A stretch of 64,000 nucleotides of DNA, from contig PHAT01000005.1 in assembly GCA_002840435.1 (NCBI GenBank), positions 858,460 to 922,459 on the forward strand, written 5' to 3'. Numbering within the stretch: position 1 is the first letter of the stretch; every line of letters begins with the position of its first letter. Shown piece after piece: positions 3,202 through 64,000 of the stretch. The notes beneath the pieces are model-generated. The model was not told the origin of the DNA, did not search any database, and worked only from the letters and a program-made list of their open reading frames with translations. This stretch comes from Deltaproteobacteria bacterium HGW-Deltaproteobacteria-6. Its GTDB lineage: Bacteria > Desulfobacterota > Syntrophia > Syntrophales > Smithellaceae. The translations under genes were made by a program, and so were the position numbers.

Positions 3202-5025
3202 ATGAAAAATCGGTCTTTGAGTTTTAAAATGATAGCGGGCGGCATTATTACGATGCTGGTGCCGCTTCTGGTCATCGGTATTTTTGCCATTTATAAGTCA
3301 AGCGATGCGCTGGAAGAGTTGTCGCAGTCCCAGTCTGTAGAAGTGGCCAAAGGGCTGGCTCATATGGCCAATCTTGCCTTGCAGGAAGAATTAAAAACGA
3401 TTAACCAACTTGCTGTTCGCGATGTAGTTGTTTCAGCCGCTGAAAAGCGCGACGAGGCCGCAAGTGACAGGGCAACGTCGGAATTGACGAAATTCGTTCA
3501 GAGCGGCGGAGGCATGTATGAGACGATTTCAATTGCCGATCCGGACGGCAAGGTAATTGCCGACGGTGTAAGCGGAAAGCATAAAGGCATCAACTTATCA
3601 GAAAGGGAGTACTTTAAAATTTCAAAAGAAGGCAAAACCACCGTGGGATCTGTTGTAAAATCGAAAGGAACCGGCAACATCGTCATGACGTTCAGCGCTC
3701 CGATCTATTCGGAGTCAAAACAATTATCCGGTGTCATTGTTTCCGTTGTCAATATCAGTTTTCTGGACGAAAAAGTATCCAAAACCAAACTGGGAAAGAC
3801 CGGCTACGGGTTCGTTCTGGATAAAACCGGTTTGTGTATCGCTCATCCGACAAAAGAATTTATCCTTAAAATCAATGCAGCTCAAACGGAAGGGATGAAG
3901 GGATTTGCCGCCCGCATGATTGCGGGCGAGACCGGGACGGAACCTTATACTTTCAAAGGCGTCAAGAAGCTGGCCGGATTTGCTCCGGTGCCTCTGGCGG
4001 GTTGGGGGGTTTGCGTCACACAGGATTACAGCGAATTTATGGCGCCTGCGCGCAGTATTACGATTGTTATTTTACTGATCGGTGTCATTTTCCTGATTGT
4101 TACGGCTCTGGGAATATTTTACTTTGCCCGCACCATTACCACGCCGATCAATAGGATTTCCAATGATCTCGATGACGCCTCGGATCAGGTCGCTTCCGCA
4201 TCGACCCAGGTGGCGGCGGCGAGTCAGAGTCTGGCCGAAGGCGCATCCGAGCAGGCCTCCGCGCTGGAAGAAACCTCTTCTTCCCTGGAAGAGATGTCCT
4301 CCATGACGAAGCAAAACGCGGACAACGCCGCTCAGGCCAAAGCGCTGATGGGCGAGGCCAGGCAGATTGTGGAAAAAGTCGATAGCCAGATGAAAAATAT
4401 GGTGGCTGCGATCCAGGATGTGACCAAGTCCAGCGAAGAGACCGGTAAGATCATTAAAACCATCGATGAGATCGCTTTCCAGACCAACCTGCTGGCGCTG
4501 AATGCCGCCGTGGAAGCGGCCCGGGCGGGCGAGGCCGGTGCAGGCTTTGCGGTGGTGGCGGATGAAGTGAGGAATCTGGCGATGCGGGCGGCGGACGCAG
4601 CCAAAAATACATCCAGTCTCATTGAAAATACGATTGTCACGGTGAAGAACAGCCGGGATCTGACTCAGCAGACGCAGGAAGCTTTTAAAGAAAACATGAA
4701 TATATCGACGAAGGTTGGGCAACTGGTGGATGAAATAGCAGCGGCGTCCAGTGAGCAAGCGCAGGGGATCGGACAAATCGGCAAGGCCGTGGCGGAAATG
4801 GATAAAGTGGTGCAGCAGACGGCTGCCAATGCCGAGGAATCGGCTTCCGCCTCGGAAGAAATGAACGCCCAGGCCTTGCAGATGAAAAATTATGTGGAAA
4901 AGTTGTTGACGATTGTGGAAGGTGGCGCAGGCCCGCAGCTTGTCGCCGATAATGAAGAACCGATAATGCCGAAGCCCGGCAAACCGATGATTAAAAAATA
5001 TTCACCACCGGGTCTAATTTCCTGA
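3202..5025 (+). CDS. Methyl-accepting chemotaxis protein (Cache-type), paralogue
   Basis: A 607-residue chemoreceptor with the same plan as the gene at 346: N-terminal membrane segment, periplasmic Cache-like domain (about 35-270), second membrane segment (about 280-305) and a cytoplasmic signalling domain with the conserved tip [21 protein letters not shown]. The frame opens at 3178, but the ATG at 3202 has an aaggagg site at 3191-3197 and matches the start of the first receptor, so it is preferred. The sensor halves differ more than the signalling halves, suggesting the two receptors sense related but not identical ligands. It has its own upstream promoter and downstream hairpin. Confidence 0.93.
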
Positions 5026-9750: not shown

Positions 9751-9969
9751 TTATGTTTTTTCAAAATGATGATAATTTTTCGGCTGTTCAAAATTGCCTC
9801 CCCAGTGCCAGCCGCGCTTGAGAAATTCCTGCACGATGGGATGTTTGGCGGTGAAGGTGCCTTTATTGTGAGGGCGGTAAGTGGCGCCTTCGAGCGCGAT
9901 GAGGCCTGCCGGATAGATGACCGGATTTTGAACGGGATTGATATCCACGGCGCGTCCGAAGGAGTGCAA
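9751..9969 (-). pseudogene. Truncated duplicate of M15 peptidase C-terminus
   Basis: This 72-codon remnant is the last third of the M15-type peptidase encoded intact at 11420-11971. It keeps the zinc motif HSFGRAVDIN and the terminal WHWGGNF region but has lost the N-terminal two thirds, ending abruptly at 9969 where the intact copy continues. The DNA from 9755 to 9968 matches 11424-11637 with about five mismatches. It has no proper start codon context, only a fortuitous TTG, so a functional product is unlikely. Confidence 0.8.
9755..9968. repeat. 214-bp direct repeat, left copy
   Basis: Nearly identical to 11424-11637 at a constant offset of 1669 bp, with about five substitutions and no gaps. 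The pair encloses the low-GC acyltransferase gene. The left copy holds only the 3' end of the peptidase gene, so it is the derived one. Confidence 0.85.
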
Positions 9970-11419: not shown

Positions 11420-11971
11420 TCACGTTTTTTCGAAATGATGATAATCTTTCGGCTGTTCAAAATTGCCGCCCCAGTGCCAGCCGCGCTTGAGAAATTCCTG
11501 CACGATGGGATGTTTGGCGGTGAAGGTGCCTTTATTGTGAGGGCGGTAAGTGGCGCCTTCGGGCGCGATGAGGTCTGCCGGATAGATGACCGGATTTTGA
11601 ACGGGATTGATATCCACGGCGCGTCCGAAGGAGTGCAGCGACAGTTTGTTGGTGCCGGCGATGACCCGGAAGTTGAAAGCGGATGAATTGTTGTCGGCCA
11701 TCGAATCGCCGTCGTCCCACCGGTAAGCAACAATGGGAATCACTTTCCCGACGGGAAACTTCAGCTGATTGATCAGTTCGAATATTTCATAGATGTCATC
11801 TTCCAGCCGCGCTTCCACAAGGATTTGTCCCTGATGACGCAGGCCATCGAAGGAATAGTAGTTCACGTCAATCATGGATAAGGAATCGATGATCTCCAGC
11901 GGCGCGGTGCTGCCTTCAATGGCTTCGGCAAAACTGATGGCGCTGTCGATAATTATTTCTTCGTTGGGCAT
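11420..11971 (-). CDS. M15-family metallopeptidase (D-Ala-D-Ala carboxypeptidase-like)
   Basis: A 183-residue protein with the zinc-peptidase pattern of the VanY/M15 group: SLHSFGRAVDINP (SxHxxGxAxD) and near the C-terminus GWHWGGNF, giving the His, Asp and His zinc ligands. It has no obvious signal peptide, which is odd for an enzyme that trims peptidoglycan stem peptides. Its start overlaps the end of the upstream glycosyltransferase gene by 19 bp, so the two are translationally coupled. Its 3' third has been copied to 9751-9969. Confidence 0.82.
   Translation of the reverse strand: MPNEEIIIDSAISFAEAIEGSTAPLEIIDSLSMIDVNYYSFDGLRHQGQILVEARLEDDIYEIFELINQLKFPVGKVIPIVAYRWDDGDSMADNNSSAFNFRVIAGTNKLSLHSFGRAVDINPVQNPVIYPADLIAPEGATYRPHNKGTFTAKHPIVQEFLKRGWHWGGNFEQPKDYHHFEKT
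11424..11637. repeat. 214-bp direct repeat, right (parental) copy
   Basis: This is the 3' part of the intact M15 peptidase gene and matches 9755-9968 almost perfectly. The region between the copies is occupied by the acyltransferase. Confidence 0.85.
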
Positions 11972-51252: not shown

Positions 51253-51987
51253 ATGGCAGACCACGCTCGAACAAAAACCCGCAAGGACCGCATCATGGAA
51301 GCGGCGCTGCGTATTTTTGCAGAGAAAAGTTTCCAGGAGGCCACCATCTCTGAAATCAGTAAAGAAGCCGGTGTTTCCGACGCCACCATTTACGAATATT
51401 TCGGCACCAAAGAAGATCTGCTGTTTGCCATCCCCGAAAAAATTTCCAATGATACGTTTGAAGAATCTGAAGCTGTCCTGCCCTATATTAAGGATGTTGA
51501 AGGCCGGATGCGCGCCGTTCTTTTGAGCTATGTCCGGCTTTATGAGAATAATCCTCATTATTCCGCGCTGGTTTTACTTCAACTCATGTCCAACAAACGC
51601 TTCCGGCAAACCGCCGCGCATGAAGCCATCCGGCGTTCCGCGCACCGGCTGCTCGATTGTATTCGCGATGGGATCGCCAACGGAACATTCCGTGCTGATG
51701 CCGACGCATACCTGATTCGTTCCATGCTGATGGGCACCATTGAACACATCTTTATCCACTGGCACATGCAGGGGATGCCCAAACGTGAAAAAAGCATGAT
51801 GGACATGCTCGACCCGTTTATGGAAATCGTCCTCTCCGGGATCCGCGCCAGGAAGCAGGAGCAAGGACTAACCCTGCACCTGAAATTAGAAGATGCCCAG
51901 GCTCTGGGGCAGATTTTTCTCGACCAGGATAAAAGCGCCAAAACTTCAAAAAACAAAAAAGTGACAAAAAGAAATACCAATAACTAA
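51253..51987 (+). CDS. TetR/AcrR-family transcriptional regulator
   Basis: A 244-residue regulator. The N-terminal helix-turn-helix is clear: KDRIMEAALRIFAEKSFQEATISEISKEAGVSDATIYEYFGTKEDLLFAIPEK. The ligand domain (about 65-205) resembles fatty-acid or acyl-CoA responsive members (FadR/PsrA-like), which fits the acyl-CoA genes that follow. A lysine-rich tail ends the protein. The broken AbfD-family gene starts 31 bp downstream on the same strand, so they may share a transcript. Confidence 0.88.
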   Translation: MADHARTKTRKDRIMEAALRIFAEKSFQEATISEISKEAGVSDATIYEYFGTKEDLLFAIPEKISNDTFEESEAVLPYIKDVEGRMRAVLLSYVRLYENNPHYSALVLLQLMSNKRFRQTAAHEAIRRSAHRLLDCIRDGIANGTFRADADAYLIRSMLMGTIEHIFIHWHMQGMPKREKSMMDMLDPFMEIVLSGIRARKQEQGLTLHLKLEDAQALGQIFLDQDKSAKTSKNKKVTKRNTNN

Positions 51988-52018: not shown

Positions 52019-53329
52019 ATGAGAACAAAACAGGATTACATCAAGGGCCTCTCCAAAATGAAACGGAACATTTATTTTGATGGGCAGCTAATTGACCGTG
52101 ACGATGAACTGCAGATGGACTGCCTCAATACCATCGGCACAACTTATGACGAAGCGGCCAAGCCGGAGAACCAGGATCTGTGTACGGCGATCTCCCACCT
52201 CACCGGCGAGAGAATCAACCGCTATACGCACATTCACCAGAGCACGGACGATCTGCACAAAAAGCAGGACATGACCAGAATGCTGTGCCAGAAGGTCGGC
52301 GGCTGCATTCAGCGCTGCATGGGCATTGACGGCACGAACGCCATTTACAATGTTTCCTATGAGCTGCTGCGCCCAGACGGACACCAAGGGCGACCGCATG
52401 CTGCGCCCCGCCGAACAGCCGAATCCCGGTTCCTATGTGCGTATTAAGGAACGGACCAAGGACGGCATTATTGTTGAAGGCTGCAAGGTTCATATTTCCG
52501 AAGCCTCCGTAGCGGACGAAGTCCTGGTGCTGCCTACCCGCGCTCTGCGCAAGGACGATAAGGACTACGCTGTTGCTTTTGCCGTACCGGGCGACTGGGA
52601 CGGGTTAAAGCAGGTTGTCACCGTTCATAATCTGCGTCAGCGCGAGCATTACAAACGCGGTTTCATGCCGGGCGCCACGGACTCCTACATGATCTTCGAC
52701 AACTGTTTCGTGCCCTGGGAAAGAGTCTTCCTGGCCGGCGAACATCAGCACGGCGGCGTTCTGGCTTTACTGTTCGCCCTGTTCCATCGTCATTCCTACT
52801 CCGGCTGCAAACCGGCGATCGGCGACGTGATTCTGGGTTCGGCCGCTCTGGCTGCGGAAGTGAACAACATCCACAAGACCGAGCATGTCCGCGAGAAACT
52901 GGCTGAGATCATCATGACCATTGAGCTGGGTTATGCCGCGGGTTATACCGCGTCCGATCTGGGCAAACCCGAAGTCTATATGCCCGGTTTTGGTTTTGTT
53001 CCTTATGGACCCGGTTCCTACATTCCGCATTCCATTTACTGCAACGTCGGCCGCTGCCTGTCGGGTGAAGCGGTATGGCGCGAAGCGGAAATTCTTTGCG
53101 ATATTTCCGGCGGCGTCACGGCGACCTTCCCGCATTGGGCGATACGCTGTGTTCGGCTACCGGCGGCATTACCAACGTGGGCAACTACCACGGCGGCGGT
53201 TCCCCGATCATGGAGCAGATTGCCATCACGACGCAGTACGACATCGAGTCCCGCAAGAAGCTGGTGAAGTACATTGCCGGCATGAGCGGCGGCGACCGGG
53301 ATGCATTGGCTCCCAAGAAAGCAAAGTAA
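52019..53329 (+). pseudogene. 4-hydroxybutyryl-CoA dehydratase/HpaB-family gene, copy 1 (two frameshifting deletions)
   Basis: The gene begins intact (MRTKQDYIKGLSKMKRNIYFDGQ) with an aaggag site and keeps the cluster motif GGCIQRC. After NVSYE (about 52365) part of the family sequence is missing and the frame changes; the second frame covers TDTKGDRMLRPAEQPNPG through the HRHSYSGC motif to TFPH. At about 53136, 85 bp present in copy 2 (54407-54491) are missing and the frame returns to the first one for the C-terminus (LGDTLCSATGGITNVGNYHGGGSP). As read it cannot give a full enzyme. Both Fe-S/FAD regions survive as sequence. Decay, assembly error and gene conversion with copy 2 are all possible. 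Confidence 0.82.
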
Positions 53330-53342
53330 GTTAAGCAAGAAG

Positions 53343-53368
53343 AAGGGGCCTGAGCATTCAGGCCCCTT
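53343..53368 (+). terminator. Hairpin terminator after AbfD copy 1
   Basis: AAGGGGCCTGA (53343-53353) and TCAGGCCCCTT (53358-53368) pair around gcat, followed by ttatg. Copy 2 has its own ribosome site 20-30 bp further on, so read-through or a promoter between must express it. Confidence 0.75.
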
Positions 53369-53404
53369 TATGTATCAAAATCTTTTAAGAGAAAGGATGG
53401 CGCC

Positions 53405-54685
53405 ATGAGAACAAAGCAGGATTATATTAAAGGCCTCTCCAAAATGAAACGGAACATTTATTTTGATGGGCAGCTAATTGACCGTGACGATGAACTCCAG
53501 ATGGATTGTCTCAATGTGATCGGGACAACCTATGACGAAGCGGCCAAGCCGGAGAACCAGGATCTGTGTACGGCGATCTCCCACCTGACGGGCGAGAGAA
53601 TCAACCGCTATACGCACATTCACCAGAACACGGACGACCTGCATAAGAAACAGGACATGACCAGAATGCTGTGCCAGAAGGTCGGCGGCTGCATTCAGCG
53701 CTGCATGGGCATTGACGGCACGAACGCCATTTACAATGTTTCCTATGAGGGCTGCAAGGTTCATATTTCTGAAGCTTCCGTGGCGGATGAAGTCCTGGTT
53801 GTTCCCACCCGGGCGCTGCGCAAAGAAGATAAGGACTATGCCGTTGCTTTTGCCGTACCGGGAGACTGGGATGGCTTGAAGCAGGTGACGACGATCCACA
53901 ACCTGCGTCCCCGTGAGCATTACAAACGGGGCTTTATGCCGGGTGCGACCGATTCCTACATGATTTTTGAGAATTGTTTTATTCCCTGGGAACGGGTTTT
54001 CCTGGCCGGCGAATATCAGCACGGCGGCGCCTGCGCGCTTTTGTTTGCCCTGTTCCATCGTCATTCCTACTCCGGCTGCAAACCGGCGATCGGCGATGTC
54101 CTGCTGGGAACAGCCGCTCTGGCCGCGGAAGTGAACAACATCCACAAGACTGAACATGTCCGCGAGAAACTGGCGGAACTCATTATGGTCATCGAACTGG
54201 GCTACGCCGCGGGTTATACGGCTTCATCCCTGGGCAAGCCGGAAGTTTATGTTCCCGGCATCGGCTTTGTTCCTTATGGACCCGGTTCCTACATTCCGCA
54301 TTCCATATACTGCAACGTCGGCCGCTGCCTGTCGGGTGAAGCGGTATGGCGCGAAGCGGAAATTCTTTGCGATATTTCCGGCGGCGTCACGGCGACCTTC
54401 CCGCATCCGGCCACCGGCGAAGCGCTTTTGAAATACACGAAGCGTAATCCCAATATGTCGGCTGAAGATCAGGCGCAGTTCTGGCGTTATCTGGGCGACC
54501 ATCTGTGCTCCGCCACCGGCGGCATCATGAATATCGGCAACTACCACGGCGGCGGTTCCCCGATCATGGAGCAGATTGCCATCACGACGCAGTACGACAT
54601 CGAGTCCCGCAAGAAGCTGGTGAAGTACATCGCCGGCATGAGCGGCGGCGACCGTGAAGCACTGGCGCCCAAAACGGCTAAATAG
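53405..54685 (+). CDS. 4-hydroxybutyryl-CoA dehydratase/HpaB-family protein, copy 2 (internal deletion)
   Basis: A 426-residue member of the HpaB/AbfD flavoprotein family. AbfD uses FAD and a [4Fe-4S] cluster to dehydrate 4-hydroxybutyryl-CoA to crotonyl-CoA by radical chemistry. The expected cluster ligands are visible: C-x3-C in GGCIQRC and H-x6-C in FHRHSYSGC. Between NVSYE and GCKVHISEA a block of roughly 70 residues normal for the family is absent; copy 1 still has part of it (TDTKGDRMLRPAEQPNPG). The deletion keeps the frame, so a protein is made, but the lost part is in the N-terminal acyl-CoA dehydrogenase-like domain and activity is doubtful. Usual length is about 490. A strong hairpin follows. 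Confidence 0.85.
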   Translation: MRTKQDYIKGLSKMKRNIYFDGQLIDRDDELQMDCLNVIGTTYDEAAKPENQDLCTAISHLTGERINRYTHIHQNTDDLHKKQDMTRMLCQKVGGCIQRCMGIDGTNAIYNVSYEGCKVHISEASVADEVLVVPTRALRKEDKDYAVAFAVPGDWDGLKQVTTIHNLRPREHYKRGFMPGATDSYMIFENCFIPWERVFLAGEYQHGGACALLFALFHRHSYSGCKPAIGDVLLGTAALAAEVNNIHKTEHVREKLAELIMVIELGYAAGYTASSLGKPEVYVPGIGFVPYGPGSYIPHSIYCNVGRCLSGEAVWREAEILCDISGGVTATFPHPATGEALLKYTKRNPNMSAEDQAQFWRYLGDHLCSATGGIMNIGNYHGGGSPIMEQIAITTQYDIESRKKLVKYIAGMSGGDREALAPKTAK

Positions 54686-54787: not shown

Positions 54788-55591
54788 ATGTTCGATCTTT
54801 CTCAATTTTCATTGAAAGGTAAAGTAGCAATAGTAACCGGCGGCAGCCGCGGCATCGGCCAGGCCATCGCCTATGGCTTCGCCAAAGCCGGAGCCAAAGT
54901 GGTTATTACCAGCCGCAAGGCGCAGGATCTGGATGCAACCGCCTGTGAAATGACGGCCATTGGCTGTGAAGTTCTGGTTGTCCCCGCGCATCTGGGTAAG
55001 TTCGAAGAATATCAGCGTGTCGTGGACACGGTTTTGCAGAAATTCGGCCGCATCGATATTCTGGTCAACAATGCCGGAGCCAGCCCCGCCATGGGATCGG
55101 TGCTTGATTCCGATGAACGCCTCTGGGATACCATCATGAACCTCAACCTGAAAGGCGTTTACTTCATGAGCCAGGCTGTAGCCAAAGTCATGAAAAAACA
55201 GGGCGGCGGAAAAATCATCAACGTCGCCTCCATCGACGGCGTTAATCCTGAACCGTTCGTCAGCGTCTATTCCATTTCCAAAGCCGGGGTTCGCCATATT
55301 ACGAAAGCTTTCGCTATGGAATTGGCTCGTGATAACATCCAGGTGAACACGATTTTACCCGGTCCGATCGAAACGAAGATGATGAACTCCCACTGGTTCA
55401 ACCTGACGCCGGAAGAGGCGGCAAAAGAACGCGAAAAATTGTGCGCGCTTCTGCCCACCTGCCGGATCGGCGTACCGGATGAAATTGCCGGAGCGGCCAT
55501 TTACCTGGCTTCCGATGCATCCAGTTATACATCGGGCACCGAGATTGTCATCGACGGCGCACTGCTTTTAAGCACGCACCTGAGCGCGTAG
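54788..55591 (+). CDS. SDR oxidoreductase (3-oxoacyl reductase-like)
   Basis: A 267-residue classical SDR: TGGSRGIGQAIA, NNAGASPAMG, Ser in NVASIDG and YxxxK as YSISKAG, with the C-terminal GTEIVIDGALLLSTHL. It resembles 3-hydroxyacyl/3-oxoacyl dehydrogenases and glucose dehydrogenases of the family; Arg in TSRK after the second strand suggests NADP(H). It lies within the acyl-CoA island, so a hydroxyacyl-CoA substrate is plausible. An aaggaga site precedes the ATG. Confidence 0.9.
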   Translation: MFDLSQFSLKGKVAIVTGGSRGIGQAIAYGFAKAGAKVVITSRKAQDLDATACEMTAIGCEVLVVPAHLGKFEEYQRVVDTVLQKFGRIDILVNNAGASPAMGSVLDSDERLWDTIMNLNLKGVYFMSQAVAKVMKKQGGGKIINVASIDGVNPEPFVSVYSISKAGVRHITKAFAMELARDNIQVNTILPGPIETKMMNSHWFNLTPEEAAKEREKLCALLPTCRIGVPDEIAGAAIYLASDASSYTSGTEIVIDGALLLSTHLSA

Positions 55592-63045: not shown

Positions 63046-64000
63046 CTATTTTTTCTTCTTCTTTTTCTCAATCAAAGGCATGCCCGCGATTTTGCGAACG
63101 ACGTTTTTGCAGGCATCAATGTCATACTGGCCGTAAATGGCGATCTGTTCCATGATGGGCGATCCGCCGCCGTGCATCGCGCCGTAAGCAATGGCGCCGG
63201 AGCTTGCGGAGTTTGTGTAATCGGCGAAGAGCAGCCAGAATTTGATCTGATCTTCAATGGGGATTTCCTGGTTGCGTTTGACATATTTTTCCAGGAGGCC
63301 CTTGATTTCCGGGTTGAGCAGGTCGGCTTCGTGCGGGAAGGTGGCGGGCATGCCGCCGGCGATCTCGCAGAGGATCTGCTGTTCATGGAAGACCGCTTCG
63401 CCGGTCAGGCAGCGTCCCACATTGGCATAAATGGAATGCGGAATGCAGGCACCCGGGCCGTAAGGCACGAAACCCACGCCGGGCATATAGACTTCCGCTT
63501 TTCCTTTAGCCGAGGCGGTGAAGCCTGCGGCATAGCCCAGTTCCGTGATGGTGATGAGCTCGGCTATTTTTTCGCGTACGTGCGGGGCCTTGTCGACGCC
63601 GTTCATTTCGGCGGCCATCGAGGCAAAACCGATCAGCATGTCGCCTACGGCCGGTTTGCAACCGGAATAGCTGTGGCGATGGAAAAGCGCGAAGAGCAGC
63701 GCGCAGATGCCGCCCTGCTGATATTCGCCGTTTAAGAAGATGCGGTCGTTGGGTACAAAGACATCGTCAAAGATCACATAGGAATCAATGAAGCCCCAGT
63801 CGAATCCGCGTTTGTAATGCTTGCGGTCTTTCATGTTGTGCGGAGAAAGCACCTGTTTGACGCCTTCAGCGTCCGCCGGGATGGCAAAAGAGATGGCATA
63901 GGCGCCTTCATCTTTGGTCAGCGCGCGGGTGGGAACCACCAGGATTTCATCCGCGATGGAGGCAAACGTGATGTGCACTTTGGCGCCGCGAACCACAACG
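63046..64000 (-). CDS. 4-hydroxybutyryl-CoA dehydratase/HpaB-family protein, copy 3 (cut by window edge)
   Basis: The C-terminal 317 residues of a third AbfD-family gene; the frame is open to the last base, so the N-terminus lies beyond the window. It has the H-x6-C motif FHRHSYSGC, GFVPYGPGACIPHSIYANVGRCLTGE and the family end HGGGSPIMEQIAIYGQYD. It is more diverged from copies 1 and 2 than they are from each other and keeps the region deleted from copy 1 near the C-terminus (LLEKYVKRNQEIPIEDQIKFWLLFADY). A lysine run ends the protein. It may be the functional enzyme of the three, though its N-terminal half is not visible. Confidence 0.88.
   Translation of the reverse strand, partial: VVVRGAKVHITFASIADEILVVPTRALTKDEGAYAISFAIPADAEGVKQVLSPHNMKDRKHYKRGFDWGFIDSYVIFDDVFVPNDRIFLNGEYQQGGICALLFALFHRHSYSGCKPAVGDMLIGFASMAAEMNGVDKAPHVREKIAELITITELGYAAGFTASAKGKAEVYMPGVGFVPYGPGACIPHSIYANVGRCLTGEAVFHEQQILCEIAGGMPATFPHEADLLNPEIKGLLEKYVKRNQEIPIEDQIKFWLLFADYTNSASSGAIAYGAMHGGGSPIMEQIAIYGQYDIDACKNVVRKIAGMPLIEKKKKKK

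Follow-up and report, generated by a model that had tools for sequence, protein, structure and literature searches.

Gaps in a tandem pair of AbfD-like genes read as scars of short-read assembly in a Smithellaceae genome

Two neighbouring genes in a Smithellaceae bacterium (assembly GCA_002840435.1, contig PHAT01000005.1) both appear to have lost part of the same region, which raises the question of whether the organism or only its genome sequence lost the pieces. The genes lie in a stretch of 64,000 nucleotides that was analyzed as a whole and is referred to here as the window. A sequence-only reading of the locus had left three options: the genes decayed in parallel, the enzyme is unusual and shortened, or the assembly introduced an artefact where the tandem genes are nearly identical. 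We favor the last at a probability of about 0.95; the gaps would be scars of short-read de Bruijn-graph assembly, and the genome sequence, not the organism, would have lost the pieces. This reading draws on a 99-nt signature in the assembly itself and on the related genomes, and our verdict is that these are ordinary genes with artefactual gaps and not a real biological feature.

The two genes do belong to the AbfD/HpaB family, as had been proposed (Table 1), and copy 2 matches Pfam HpaB and, over two broken stretches, HpaB_N. When a full-length relative was compared with the PDB, AbfD (1u8v) was the best match (293 bits, 483 residues), followed by vinylacetyl-CoA delta-isomerase (6vjr, 243 bits), with the HpaB monooxygenases far behind (104 bits). 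The Fe-S ligand motifs C-x3-C and H-x6-C reported previously are present in both copies; in the numbering of 1u8v, the ligands C99, C103, H292 and C299 are retained, together with Y296 and K300. These proteins differ from 6vjr in having HRHSYSGCK where 6vjr has HRRSYVCK. They differ from 1u8v in that the equivalent of residues ~119-183 is absent from copy 2 as assembled, but this absence is not taken as real because the full-length relatives have the region. Assignment to the HpaB-1 type of 4-hydroxyphenylacetate 3-monooxygenase (TIGR02309) was rejected, with copy 2 scoring 71 bits and the full-length relative 138.6 bits against a curated cut-off of 480.2. Judging from the family, the enzymes are likely to be acyl-CoA dehydratases/isomerases that contain FAD together with a [4Fe-4S] cluster, and both genes most likely encode intact AbfD-like flavoproteins of ~499 aa that belong to the 4-hydroxybutyryl-CoA dehydratase clade.

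A DNA alignment of the pair with 17 full-length homologues, of which 16 come from relatives and the last from the same genome, placed four gaps at two points, with an uncertainty of 1-3 bases in the gap ends. Site A follows NVSYE (52363 in copy 1 and 53749 in copy 2), where ~86 nt are absent from copy 1 and ~201 nt from copy 2. Site B follows TFPH (53135 and 54406, respectively), where the loss is ~103 nt in copy 1 and 18 nt, encoding EKDFAN, in copy 2. The two break points are common to both copies, whereas the positions at which the sequence resumes differ between them. The two frame-changing deletions that had been described in copy 1 are those at sites A and B. Copy 2 is indeed a single ORF of 426 aa; however, the sequence-only reading credited it with one in-frame deletion and overlooked the second, shorter one. 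Likewise, its common start after NVSYE with different ends stands, but TFPH is a second common start, and the alignment that it had called for finds family sequence absent from both copies in four gaps, not three. The two gaps in copy 2 (201 + 18 nt) amount to 73 codons (499 - 426), and 67 residues within HpaB_N are gone, the TDxKGDR stretch among them. As assembled, both copies fall short of a length of ~490-505 residues in which the HpaB_N and HpaB domains are complete, a shortfall that we attribute to assembly.

Table 1. Coordinates of the tandem pair, its neighbors and the 99-nt exact matches (window positions unless contigs are named).
Feature	Position	Strand	Remarks
TetR-family regulator	51253-51987	+	Pfam PF00440; upstream neighbor of the pair, conserved in L056, L059, L072 and L074
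Copy 1 of the AbfD-like pair	52019-53329	+	Two frame-changing gaps, read as assembly gaps; all three blocks keep the family frame open
99-nt exact match in copy 1	52265-52363	+	Matches 53651-53749 of copy 2; 3' end is site A, ~86 nt absent
99-nt exact match in copy 1	53037-53135	+	Matches 54308-54406 of copy 2; 3' end is site B, ~103 nt absent
Copy 2 of the AbfD-like pair	53405-54685	+	426 codons as assembled; two gaps, 73 codons absent
99-nt exact match in copy 2	53651-53749	+	Matches 52265-52363 of copy 1; 3' end is site A, ~201 nt absent
99-nt exact match in copy 2	54308-54406	+	Matches 53037-53135 of copy 1; 3' end is site B, 18 nt absent
Short-chain dehydrogenase (SDR)	54788-55591	+	Pfam PF13561; downstream neighbor of the pair, conserved in L056, L057, L059 and L072
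99-nt contig-end pairs	C1 start/C10 end; C7 end/C11 end; C7 start/C13 start; C5 end/C6 end; C13 end/C3 start		

What had escaped the sequence-only reading is that each common start point closes a stretch of 99 nt in which the copies are identical. Both gap start points coincide exactly with the 3' ends of these perfect matches. Past the shorter tracts that the copies share within the pair (65, 56, 50 and 95 nt), the sequence runs on colinearly. Another tandem pair in the window (9800-9968 and 11469-11637), with exact matches of 93 and 63 nt, is also colinear, with no break seen. Since all of these tracts stay colinear, the breaks would track the assembler's tract length and not similarity as such.

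The length of 99 nt is not peculiar to this locus. We collected every maximal exact repeat of at least 40 nt, on both strands, from 1.69 Mb (41% of the 4.09 Mb assembly). This sample consisted of 800 kb of C5, 400 kb from each of C1 and C2, the two ends of every contig from C1 to C20, and C21-C27. No exact repeat of 100 nt or more occurs in the 1.69 Mb surveyed. The longest repeats there are exactly 99 nt, and there are eight such pairs; from 60 nt upward, each of the remaining lengths was seen at most three times. Five of the eight pairs consist of two contig ends, flush with the ends (Table 1), and sites A and B account for two of the three internal pairs. De Bruijn assemblers leave contig ends that overlap by one fixed length at unresolved repeats, and an overlap of 99 nt corresponds to a vertex of 99, or to k = 100 where the program's contigs overlap by k-1. 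The five contig-end pairs at exactly 99 nt therefore imply that this is the assembler's k-mer overlap, and both sites break at the end of an exact repeat of that length. At both sites, two sequences have their last 99 bases in common, the same arrangement as at the C7/C11 and C5/C6 ends. The option of an assembly artefact is strongly supported by this signature, which the contig ends of the same assembly bear as well.

We suggest the following sequence of events. Exact repeats at least as long as the assembler's k-mer overlap (99 nt) would occur in the tandem copies, and a sequence entering such a repeat would stop after exactly 99 common bases, as the contig ends of the same assembly do. The pieces would then have been joined over the unresolved repeat, with neither Ns nor bases between them, perhaps by gap filling or scaffold merging. 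The breaks resemble other scars of k-mer-unresolved repeats in that they fall at the end of an overlap-length tract common to near-identical copies, and in that the same length recurs at other contig ends; they differ in having been joined silently, which mimics gene deletions. The missing Ns count against this explanation, as does the fact that both gaps in copy 2 are in frame, for which the chance is ~1 in 9. Furthermore, the 3' resumption points are at different positions in the two copies and no matching 99-nt tract flanks them, so a dropped-repeat model in its simple form fails to predict every coordinate. The simplest version, in which the interior of the repeat is dropped and both copies resume at the repeat end, is rejected in detail because the resumption points differ.

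The related genomes point in the same direction. Near relatives all have full-length genes (86-93% protein identity). Three of them (L056, L059 and L072) have the tandem pair between the TetR and SDR genes with both copies at 499-506 aa; in a fourth (L074), copy 1 has its full length and the contig stops within copy 2. The complete length (~490-505 aa, HpaB_N plus HpaB) is found in all of the full-length syntenic relatives. A search for the same deletions in related genomes, as had been proposed, found none of the four gaps in any relative compared. At 77 of the 79 loci from named genomes, the site-A segment (TDxKGDR motif) is present in one ORF with both ligand motifs; the two exceptions are L120, which is cut, and L104, a 525-aa ORF that does not fit the motif used. 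In two relatives, contigs break inside the tandem pair (G005:C58 ends in the second copy and G011:C59 begins in the first), which implies that the pair also splits other assemblies. When the missing segments were sought elsewhere in this assembly with a relative's full gene, only known paralogues were recovered (the closest at 77% identity) from the contigs covered, which excluded C28-C53, and these could hold the segments. The organism itself most likely carries, like its relatives, two full-length (~499 aa) genes in tandem for putative AbfD-like flavin/[4Fe-4S] acyl-CoA dehydratases/isomerases.

Every remaining part of both copies is under purifying selection. Comparison of copy 1 with copy 2 gives dN/dS values of 0.04, 0.08 and 0.11 for the three common blocks, throughout which both copies keep the family frame open. 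From site A to the next common block, the family frame of copy 1 gives AQTDTKGDRMLRPAEQPNPGSYVRIKERTKDGIIVE, which resembles the relatives. Beyond the joins, no stops, indels or other signs of decay were found in the remaining parts of either copy. These results bear directly on real parallel decay, by which both copies would be pseudogenes and each would have suffered its own deletions at two shared hot spots, perhaps promoted by gene conversion between them. Copy 1 is frameshifted as written and the tracts shared by the copies are long enough for recombination; however, decay would have to place four deletions at only two start points, each at the end of a 99-nt match, and this in an assembly where 99 nt is also the exact overlap between contig ends. 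It would also have to do so with no further stops or indels, with no block exceeding a dN/dS of 0.11, with gaps that no relative shares and with the second gap of copy 2 at copy 1's point, and so we regard it as very improbable. Least probable of all is a real, working, shortened copy 2 of new arrangement beside a decaying twin, that is, a genuine AbfD-like enzyme of 426 aa that lost 73 residues and is still selected; copy 2 does have one open frame, its Fe-S ligand residues and purifying selection relative to copy 1, but its gaps, the second one at copy 1's point, lie at the assembly signature, no relative has them, and the 67 HpaB_N residues gone include the TDxKGDR stretch kept at nearly all homologous loci.

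Reading the gaps as assembly scars clears away two false features, a pseudogene pair and a shortened enzyme. It also offers an inexpensive check that requires no reads: the assembler's k shows as a spike in exact-repeat length at contig ends, and an internal break can then be marked as a likely scar wherever the tract beside it has exactly this length.

Several other repeats and paralogues were observed. Contig C1 (G000:C1:118163-118532) has a gap of 38 Ns (118262-118299) with the same 51-nt sequence on either side, which implies that the assembly was scaffolded. The window contains a 65-nt exact direct repeat (1399-1463 and 4243-4307), 2.8 kb apart. A further AbfD-like paralogue, a 507-aa open frame ~60% identical to copy 2, lies on the minus strand at 63076-64000 and continues past the window end. 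The third internal 99-nt pair (C5:731760-731858 and 733552-733650, within 11541-11858 and 13332-13650 of L157, G000:C5:720001-740000) is shared by an RluA-like pseudouridine synthase gene and a second copy of the 3' end of this gene that is partial and frameshifted. This may again be an assembly scar, or else a genuine duplication of part of the gene.
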